Position numbers and translations under genes: made by a program. From NCBI GenBank assembly GCA_013140465.1, contig JABFST010000075.1:1-12981 (forward strand): a stretch of DNA of 12,981 nt. The letters run 5' to 3'. This document shows positions 4,170-12,981 of this stretch, piece after piece. The DNA is from Methylococcaceae bacterium. GTDB lineage: Bacteria > Pseudomonadota > Gammaproteobacteria > Methylococcales > Methylomonadaceae. The notes below the pieces were generated by a model, which ran no database searches, had not been told where the DNA came from, and was given only the letters and a program-made list of their open reading frames with translations. The first letter of the stretch is position 1, and every line of letters starts with the position of its first letter.

Positions 4170-4208
4170 TGCTGTGCTTCCGGGTTGGGGTTGATGTGAT
4201 TGCCGTTA

Positions 4209-4264
4209 TAGAGTCCGAAGCTGATAAATCTACATTAAACGCCCTCTCCCTCAGGGAGAGGGTG
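4209..4264. repeat. Copy 1 of a 56-base dispersed repeat ending in a CCCTCTCCCT palindrome
   Basis: This stretch matches 8817-8872 at 51 of 56 positions, counted by eye. The first 32 bases are identical (from TAGAGTCCGAAGCTG to ACATTAAAC). The 3' part of this copy is a perfect 10-bp inverted repeat, CCCTCTCCCT at 4242-4251 and AGGGAGAGGG at 4253-4262. It lies between ilvD and the SH3-domain gene, within the region that should hold the ilvD promoter. It may be a small mobile or REP-like unit. The hairpin could also end transcription from the SH3-domain gene. Confidence 0.8.
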
Positions 4265-4312
4265 ATTTAATGACGCTTTACTTCCTGCGTTCTCTTTATG
4301 ATGGGTGTACGC

Positions 4313-8816: not shown

Positions 8817-8872
8817 TAGAGTCCGAAGCTGATAAATCTACATTAAACACCCTCTCCCTGAGGGCATGGGTG
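8817..8872. repeat. Copy 2 of the 56-base dispersed repeat
   Basis: It matches 4209-4264 at 51 of 56 positions. The 5' 32 bases are identical, and differences cluster in the 3' palindrome, where GGGAGAGGG has become GGGCATGGG, so this copy can no longer form the full hairpin. No target-site duplication is evident around either copy. Confidence 0.8.
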
Positions 8873-8954
8873 TCTACACAAGTTTTAAAAGCCATAAAAA
8901 CAATAAGCTACACCGTGCATAGGTAACTTATCATTAGTTGTGGGCAAAAGCGGC

Positions 8955-8987
8955 AGACCTGCGAGGTTTTATAAACCTCACAGGTCT
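8955..8987. repeat. Inverted repeat AGACCTG(C/T)GAGGTTT
   Basis: Arms of 15 bases (8955-8969 and 8973-8987) match at 14 of 15 positions around a TAT loop. This is a familiar extragenic palindrome in many bacterial genomes (recalled). It could form a strong hairpin in RNA from either strand. Confidence 0.75.
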
Positions 8988-9021
8988 TTATCCTGTCACT
9001 CATGCGAAGTTACTTGCATAG

Positions 9022-9057
9022 CCCCCTCTCCCACGGGGAGAGGGTTGGGGAGAGGGG
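9022..9057. repeat. CCCTCTCCC / GGGAGAGGG palindrome with a tandem second G arm
   Basis: CCCTCTCCC (9024-9032) pairs exactly with GGGAGAGGG (9036-9044) across an ACG loop. A second arm, GGGGAGAGGGG (9047-9057), could pair with the same C-rich arm, giving two alternative stems. The core matches the palindrome inside the repeat at 4242-4262. Confidence 0.7.
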
Positions 9058-10798: not shown

Positions 10799-12385
10799 GT
10801 GAAACCACAAGCCACTTCTATCCACTCCCACAAAATCCTGATCCTCGATTTCGGCTCACAATACACCCAGCTCATCGCCCGGCGTATTCGTGAAATTGGC
10901 GTGTATTGCGAAATTTATTCCTGCGAATGCAGCGCCGACGACATCACCCAATTTGCGCCCAACGGCATCATCTTGTCGGGCGGCCCCGATACCGTGACCA
11001 GCGGCGATACCCCACGCGCCCCGCAAATCGTCTTTGAACTCAACATCCCCGTGCTAGGTATCTGCTACGGTATGCAAACCATGGCGGAACAACTGGGTGG
11101 CAAAGTCGAAAGCTCCAACCACCGCGAATTTGGCTATGCCCAAATCCGCGCACGCGGACATTCCAAACTACTGACGGGCATAGAAGACCATTTATCCCCC
11201 GAAGGCTACGGCTTGCTGGATGTGTGGATGAGCCACGGCGACCGCGTGGTGCAACTGCCCGACGGTTTTATGCTGATTGCCAGCTCAGACGGCGCACCGA
11301 TTGCCGGTATCGCCAACGAAGCCAAAGCTTTTTACGCCTTGCAATTCCACCCCGAAGTCACCCACACCAAACAAGGCGGGCGCATCTTATCGCGTTTTGT
11401 TTTGGATATTTGCGGCTGTGATGCCTTATGGACTGCCAGCAACATCATTGAAGACAGCATCAACGCCGTGCGCGAAAAAGTCGGCACCGACCACGTTATC
11501 TTAGGCTTGTCGGGTGGGGTGGATTCGTCCGTGGTTGCGGCCTTGCTGCACAAAGCCATCAAAGACCAACTCACTTGCGTATTTGTCGATACTGGCTTAT
11601 TGCGCCTAAACGAAGGCGACCAAGTGATGGCTACTTTTGCCGAACACATGGGCGTAAAAGTCATCCGCGTCAATGCCGCACAACGCTATTTTGACGCCTT
11701 AAGCGGCATCACCGACCCCGAACAAAAACGCAAAATCATCGGCAACTTGTTTATAGAAATCTTCGACGAAGAAGCCGCCAAAATCACCGATGCCAAATGG
11801 CTGGCACAAGGCACGATTTACCCTGACGTGATTGAATCGGCGGGTTCCAAAAGCGGCAAAGCGCATTTGATCAAATCCCACCACAACGTCGGCGGCTTGC
11901 CCGAAAACATGCAGCTCAAACTCGTTGAACCCTTGCGTGAATTGTTCAAAGACGAAGTCAGAAAACTGGGCTTGGAACTCGGCTTGCCCGCCGACATGGT
12001 GTTCCGCCATCCCTTCCCCGGCCCTGGTTTAGGCGTGAGAATCCTTGGCGAAGTCAAACAAGAATACGCCGACTTATTGCGCTTGGCCGATGCCATTTTT
12101 ATCGAAGAACTCTACCGCCACGACTTATACAACAAAGTCAACCAAGCCTTCGCCGTGTTCCTGCCCGTCAAATCCGTGGGCGTGATGGGCGACGGGCGGC
12201 GTTACGACTACGTTGTTGCGATCCGCGCCGTTGAAACCATCGACTTTATGACTGCACGCTGGGCGCATTTGCCTTACGAGTTCTTAGACCTCATTTCCCG
12301 CCGCATCATCAACGAAGTTGCGGGCATCTCCCGCGTCGCCTACGACATCTCCGGCAAACCCCCCGCGACTATCGAATGGGAATAA
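10799..12385 (+). CDS. guaA: GMP synthase (glutamine-hydrolysing)
   Basis: This enzyme aminates XMP to GMP using ATP and glutamine ammonia. The N-terminal class-I amidotransferase domain has GGP-D-T-V-T-S-G (61-69), nucleophile C89 in LGICYGMQ, and H184/E186 in FHPEVTHT. The ATP-pyrophosphatase domain opens with the PP-loop LSGGVDSS (S238-S244), and [17 protein letters not shown] follows. The C-terminal dimerisation domain ends in [10 protein letters not shown], the canonical terminus. No ATG is available near the expected start. GTG at 10799 gives 528 residues (E. coli 525) and is preferred over TTG at 10760; both have weak ribosome sites. It follows guaB and overlaps the start of tadA by 10 bases. 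Confidence 0.96.
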
Positions 12386-12753
12386 GCCCCACGCCAGACG
12401 ACGCATGGATGCGTCACGCTATCCGCCTCGCCCAATACGCCGAACAACAAGGCGAAGTCCCGGTCGGTGCGCTCATCGTCCAAAACGACCGCTGCATCGC
12501 CGAAGGCTGGAACAGCGTCATCGCCCACCACGACCCCACCGCCCACGCCGAAATCATGGCATTACGCAACGCGGGCCAACACCTGGCAAACTACCGCTTG
12601 CTCAACACCACCCTCTACGTCACCCTAGAACCCTGCGTCATGTGCATGGGCGCCCTCAGCCACGCCCGCATCACCCGCTTAGTCTTCGGCGCCTACGACC
12701 CCAAACGCGGCGCAGTCTGCAACGCCCTACACCTAAGCGATGCACCGTTTTAA
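12376..12753 (+). CDS. tadA: tRNA-specific adenosine deaminase, cut short by an in-frame TAA
   Basis: TadA deaminates A34 to inosine in tRNA-Arg(ACG), letting one tRNA read CGU, CGC and CGA; it is essential in E. coli. The 125-residue frame has the zinc site H57-A-E59 (proton-shuttling Glu) and P86-C87-V-M-C90, plus EVPVGALIV and the family N-terminus WMRHAI. The ATG at 12376 lies inside the guaA 3' end (10-base overlap), suggesting coupling. The protein stops at [14 protein letters not shown], ~30 residues short of normal. The next 27 codons in the same frame spell a normal TadA C-terminus (see 12751-12837), so a full gene would be 153 residues. All catalytic residues precede the stop, but the lost helix normally packs on the core and contacts tRNA. 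Activity of the short form is uncertain; a sequencing error is possible. Confidence 0.9.
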
Positions 12754-12837
12754 AACCATAGTGTTGATTGGTTGGGTGGAGTGTTGGAAGAAGAATGTGC
12801 GGAGTTGTTGAGGGGGTTTTTTAGGGGTAGGCGGTAA
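12751..12837 (+). pseudogene. tadA: Separated C-terminal segment of tadA after the in-frame stop
   Basis: Translation in the tadA frame gives stop, then NHSVDWLGGV and a continuation with GGVL-E-E-E-C-A-E-L-L and FF-R-G-RR, ending in TAA at 12835-12837. It aligns without gaps to the E. coli TadA tail (NHRVEVTEGVLADEC...FFRMRR). The stop occupies the residue just before NH, usually Leu or Met. A single TTA or TTG to TAA change would explain it. Codon choice here is G/T-rich, unlike the C-rich body of the gene. Confidence 0.85.
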
Positions 12838-12874
12838 GAAGGATTATTTGCTGTTTATTGGGTGGGGTTTTGGG

Positions 12875-12886
12875 TATAATCCGCCA
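12875..12886 (+). promoter_or_regulatory. Probable rRNA-operon promoter (-10 with GC-rich discriminator)
   Basis: A perfect TATAAT is followed by CCGCCA, giving TATAATCCGCCACC, very close to the TATAATGCGCCACC of E. coli rrn P1 promoters, whose GC-rich discriminator makes them sensitive to ppGpp. No good -35 was found at 16-18 bases (GTTTAT or TGTTTA lie there). The rRNA identity rests on the downstream boxA. Confidence 0.6.
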
Positions 12887-12981
12887 CCCTGAGTGCTGTA
12901 GGACTGATTTCCTCTCGGCGACGCATGACTCAGGGAAATTATCGCTCTGTTGAGGGCGAGATGGTTTTTGTTCTTTAATAT
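12887..12981 (+). promoter_or_regulatory. rRNA-operon leader with boxB-like hairpin and boxA antitermination site
   Basis: CCCTGAGT (12887-12894) pairs exactly with ACTCAGGG (12928-12935). A second stem, TCGCTCT/AGGGCGA with a GTTG loop (12942-12959), sits where boxB is found. TGTTCTTTAATA (12969-12980) matches the E. coli rrn boxA TGCTCTTTAACA at 10 of 12 positions. The boxB-then-boxA order is that of rRNA leaders, which recruit NusB/NusE to prevent premature termination. The 16S gene should start past the right edge. The T-rich stretch after the second stem could mimic a terminator, which is the main alternative reading. Confidence 0.65.

Follow-up and report, generated by a model that had tools for sequence, protein, structure and literature searches.

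Does a single stop codon inside tadA, the gene for the tRNA deaminase TadA, reflect the biology of the bacterium that carries it, or the draft genome in which it was found? The window, by which we mean the whole stretch of 12,981 nucleotides analysed here, is the entire contig C172 of a draft metagenome genome, G000 (3,601,235 bases in 507 contigs; 83.42% complete, 2.46% contamination). The source is apparently an uncultured methane-oxidising bacterium. Those of the best database relatives that are named come mostly from Methylobacter or other Methylococcales, and judged by these relatives G000 appears to be akin to Methylobacter.

An in-frame TAA divides the tadA reading frame

In the window, tadA runs from an ATG through 125 codons to a TAA, beyond which the same frame continues for 27 sense codons (NHSVDWLGGVLEEECAELLRGFFRGRR) and closes at a second TAA, at 12835-12837 (Table 1). 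The original prediction described this layout, with a TadA C-terminus and a terminator of its own behind the first stop, and it was confirmed by our reading of the open reading frames (ORFs) and by the tails of related genes. The stop is present in the sequence letters, 228 bases from the contig end at 12981, and is explained by no device that we found.

Table 1. Coordinates of tadA, its parts and the preceding gene in the window
Feature	Position	Strand	Evidence or remark
tadA 5' part, 125 codons and in-frame TAA	12376..12753	+	HAE at 57-59, PCVMC at 86-90; NCBIfam NF008113, 181.1 bits
In-frame TAA	12751..12753	+	Leu codon in relatives (TTA in G002; TTA or TTG in all 22 same-genus loci read)
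Continued tadA frame, 27 codons for the conserved C-terminal end of the protein (final strand and helix), then the closing TAA	12754..12837	+	ORF, relatives, model of G002 TadA
guaA (GMP synthase), with its own terminator TAA	10760..12385	+	10-base overlap with the start of tadA

The product of the 125 codons scores above the curated cut-off of the TadA family (150 bits) and keeps HAE and PCxxC, which are catalytic zinc motifs of TadA. The corresponding columns are invariant across 12 aligned relatives, an alignment from which the window protein was left out. In sequence and catalytic motifs the gene resembles TadA (NF008113; PDB 1z3a and 3ocq), and its place directly after guaA is the same as in the nearest genome, G002, and in the draft locus L088. 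Unlike TadA, the gene as written halts 28 residues before its nearest relatives. The C-terminal strand and the anticodon-binding helix are absent from the protein as translated and are coded 3' of the TAA.

Relatives have leucine at the position of the stop

We searched 40 relatives and found a TadA-class match in 22 of 24 same-genus genomes; the two that gave none, G008 and G010, are drafts at 80% and 75% completeness. Codon 126 is a leucine codon in all 22 loci (TTA in 21, TTG in one), and the gene is uninterrupted in each of them. Relatives that all end at the stop position, which the original prediction had named as the sign against a nonsense change, were not found (0 of 22). Seven loci were available at the level of the order, of which L027, L028 and L032 were left out of the reading of codon 126. 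G002 has an intact tadA with TTA at codon 126 (TTTTTAAA), one base off the TAA of the window (TTTTAAAA). This supports the predicted T-to-A substitution, and a single-base change from TTA to TAA would account for the stop.

A 153-residue database protein, P0001 (a cluster of 5 sequences; one 907-base contig), is closer to the window than G002 and has both L126 and the whole tail. It has Y107 and H119 in common with the window protein, where G002 has F107 and S119, and differs from the window core at residue 61 only. Since G002, the 22 same-genus loci and P0001 all have leucine, the stop is known from the G000 assembly alone.

The same position was read in the best 80 of at least 581 tadA loci confirmed in a collection of named genomes, and holds Leu in 62, Met in 13, and Ala, Val and His in one each, with two unassigned; some of these loci lie on contigs apparently identical to those of the same-genus set, so that the two counts overlap. 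That the stop sits at a usual Leu/Met position thus holds. The gap-free alignment to the Escherichia coli protein was likewise borne out, with G002 TadA aligned to PDB 1z3a, which we take to be E. coli TadA, and L126 falling opposite the Met of PGMNHR.

The tail itself appears free of decay, although it is richer in changes than the core. Between the window and G002, the core differs at 14 of 375 bases (12 of 125 codons, with 2 amino-acid changes), and the stretch from codon 126 through the terminator at 10 of 87, a density of differences about three times that of the core. Nine of the 28 codons 3' of the stop, terminator included, differ: seven synonymously, one as TAA against TGA, and one as D against A at residue 131, a position that varies among relatives. 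The motif FFR/K-x-RR ends the tail in 22 of 22 same-genus loci. Because the differences from G002 are mostly synonymous and the ending is kept in relatives, the resemblance of the tail to TadA is not due to chance.

The stop is probably a wrong base near a contig end

We propose, with a probability of roughly 60%, that the stop is a sequence or assembly error, or an artefact of strain mixing near the contig end. The leucine TTA of the relatives would have become TAA through a one-base difference that is seen only in the consensus of one metagenome contig. This difference would stem from sequencing, from assembly or from the mixing of strains close to the contig end. The living population would then encode an ordinary 153-residue TadA, which would deaminate A34 of tRNA-Arg(ACG). 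Because the nearest relatives examined have no stop at this position, an error or a very recent mutation is to be preferred to a new biological device, and we infer a mistaken base in the consensus and not a recent mutation.

In favour of an artefact we count the leucine in G002, in every same-genus locus and in P0001, the undecayed tail, and a tRNA-Arg(ACG) that is the same as in genomes with an intact tadA. Further points are the lack of a second tadA in the assembly, the short distance to the contig end, the number of contigs and the parallel offered by L088. This draft locus, one of the best 80 of at least 581 tadA loci in the named collection, has an isolated in-frame TAG at codon 10 (L088:1499-1501) in place of a conserved Trp, and shows that isolated stops in draft tadA genes also occur elsewhere, at another position. 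Like the window gene, it has a lone in-frame stop in an otherwise intact gene of a single draft genome. Unlike in the window gene, its stop comes early, and translation from a TTG further downstream could still give a 141-aa protein. When an essential gene present in one copy has a stop that its nearest relatives do not share, this is a useful flag for base errors or strain mixing near the ends of contigs in draft metagenome genomes.

Counted against an artefact are the otherwise clean assembly and the denser changes from codon 126, a possible trace of relaxed selection even if almost all are silent. The comparison covered 41 hand-picked, non-random stretches of G000 (300,656 bases) and 81 stretches of G002 (1,346,683 bases). 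It used G002 ORFs of at least 100 aa whose counterpart reached 60% coverage and 70% identity, a coverage filter that may have dropped broken genes. Four of the 50 ORFs with a G000 counterpart contain a stop there. The tadA stop is the sole mid-gene case, the other three lying no more than about 8 codons from the ORF end. No split, frameshifted match was detected among the 50, a count in which badly broken genes may be hidden by the same filter. One further ORF gave two matches over the same part of the query, which represent a duplicate and not a split. In the reverse comparison, 53 G000 ORFs gave six stops in G002, two of them in a wrong-frame ORF over tadA and four within the first 24 or so codons. 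Where it was compared, the G000 consensus is generally clean. Consensus substitution errors are rare in short-read assemblies. The clean consensus tells to some extent against a plain error, and it is chiefly for this reason that we leave a third of the probability with a real mutation.

A truncated TadA would be expected to function poorly

The best surviving alternative, possible but not favoured, is that the sampled population truly has a nonsense mutation of very recent origin. TadA would then be missing the final strand and the C-terminal helix, tRNA-Arg(ACG) would be deaminated weakly or not at all, and the lineage would either get by with CGN codons, CGA above all, decoded less well, or be dying out. 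One substitution suffices for such an event, and the undecayed tail is compatible with it if it is recent. That tadA has the only mid-gene stop among the 50 comparable ORFs, in a consensus that is good overall, also speaks for a mutation.

The part cut off in the window corresponds to a strand at 131-134 and a helix at 138-151 in our model of G002 TadA (best mean pLDDT 79.1; the other four models 69.0, 43.5, 36.5 and 34.8). One study describes TadA as needing its long C-terminal helix to bind the anticodon stem-loop (PMC8216470). Because the lost part includes this helix, an enzyme cut at 125 residues would be expected to function poorly. For the same reason, we doubt the suggestion in the original prediction that a retained catalytic core makes the mutation tolerable.

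A second source describes TadA as essential in E. coli, which argues against a real loss (PMC3711424). The same source reports that tRNAs with an unmodified A34 are almost unimpaired on C-ending codons and perform worst on A-ending ones, and that some Mollicutes live without TadA, having lost tRNA-Arg(CCG) and using mostly AGA (PMC3711424). From this decoding and the TadA-less Mollicutes, it follows that loss of TadA is perhaps not lethal in every setting.

The Mollicutes thus offer a precedent for living with a lost or weakened TadA, but G000 is unlike them in keeping genes for both tRNA-Arg(ACG), the putative TadA substrate, and tRNA-Arg(CCG). The tRNA-Arg(ACG) gene, for which the original prediction had proposed a search, is unaltered and 100% identical to those of G005, G007 and G011, all of which have an intact tadA. 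CGN codons predominate among the arginine codons of the ten other window genes, with CGC the commonest (CGC 79, CGT 35, CGG 17, CGA 10, AGA 14, AGG 5), and both this usage and the unaltered tRNA weigh against a real nonsense mutation. No change that would compensate for the loss of TadA was found.

It is unlikely that the stop is both real and tolerated, with a helix-less TadA acting at a reduced level on tRNA-Arg(ACG), or with the tail made at a low level by readthrough, and with inosine-34 scarce despite the reliance on CGN codons. Were this so, the locus would represent a natural first step towards the loss of TadA outside the Mollicutes. If real, the stop would more generally offer a natural experiment on how short TadA can become and on CGN decoding with little inosine. 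The biological weight of the locus is small unless the stop is confirmed by reads.

No route around the stop was found

The original prediction listed further ways in which the cell could live with the stop. Sequencing error and recent nonsense mutation stand among its options, whereas a second tadA, a suppressor tRNA and stop readthrough are without support. A search of the G000 contigs, in which about 17% of the genome is missing (83.42% complete), found no second full tadA. The other two deaminase matches are a 155-aa protein at 39% identity, presumably guanine-deaminase-like, and a RibD-like protein. None of the 35 tRNA hits has the UUA anticodon of an ochre suppressor (ARAGORN; 150 of 162 first-look candidates scored, in a genome 83% complete).

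Readthrough or suppression of the stop, by which full-length TadA would still be made, has the intact downstream frame as its sole support, and we consider it very improbable. Besides the missing suppressor, TAA is the terminator of 8 of the 10 other window genes, including the overlapping guaA, and conserved programmed readthrough is not indicated, with a stop at this codon in 0 of 22 same-genus loci. Rfam gave no matches in the whole window at gathering scores and none in 12740-12981 at E values up to 1. TAA followed by A is not known to be a leaky context. Readthrough, frameshifting and suppression are all without support.

A structured RNA or recoding element was rejected on the same Rfam result. 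Programmed frameshifting is ruled out, since it would be useless for a tail that is already in frame with the core, and a +1 slip on TTTT would exit the TadA frame. A scan for sigma-70 promoters in 12300-12981 gave none.

It is equally improbable that the product of the 125 codons functions as a short TadA able to dispense with the C-terminal helix: it keeps HAE and PCVMC and passes the TadA cut-off, but the best 120 of 8000 scored database relatives are all 148-183 aa long, the missing strand and helix include the element said to bind the anticodon stem-loop, and the closest relatives keep the tail.

Composition and surroundings of the tadA 3' end

The GC skew changes from -0.29 to +0.89 at 12760 (120-base flanks). 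None of the other positions sampled in G000 (29,101 in all) shows so large a change, the runner-up having one of 0.82. The flip spans 12640-12890, and third-position C falls from 66% in the tadA core to 4% in the tail. A skew change of 0.95 occurs there in G002 too, where it exceeds every other on the 17,465-base contig; in the other 21 loci of the genus the skew is positive in core and tail alike, without such a flip. Because G002, with its intact gene, has the same flip, the flip is older than the stop and is no explanation for it. Replacement of the tail by recombination or a phage-type exchange was rejected, as G002 combines the same composition change with an intact gene. Rho-loading sites are C-rich and G-poor, and the minus strand of the flip stretch has this composition.

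Homology between G000 and G002 stops at 12897, 60 bases past tadA, and the last 84 bases of the window (12897-12981) have no match in the 24 relatives searched. They contain a terminator-like site at 12942-12959 (0.5 expected by chance). In G002, tadA is followed by small unrelated ORFs that seem to include a toxin-antitoxin-like pair. Given the end of homology and the unrelated genes beyond it in G002, the 3' end of tadA may border variable DNA. Assemblies tend to break at such borders.

Elsewhere in G000, two equal-scoring tRNA-Arg(CCG) genes lie 4.8 kb apart on one contig (L047, C377:915-988; L048, C377:5744-5817) and could flank an integrated element. A low-scoring tRNA-like sequence with anticodon ACG (L145:1191-1274, on contig C462; 36.4 bits) has, by eye, a Leu-type body and a long variable arm, and seemingly has mismatches in its acceptor stem.

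At the other end of the window, 353-2391 on the minus strand encodes an HNH protein and an AAA ATPase that match the Septu defence proteins PtuB and PtuA (E values down to 4.7e-40 and 2.8e-87). Copies of a stretch of about 60-140 bases within 8908-9046 occur, with 78-92% identity, in no fewer than 17 of the 81 G002 stretches; they form a dispersed repeat family common to G000 and G002. Another short repeat, found at both 4205-4298 and 8817-8879, has copies in G002 too.
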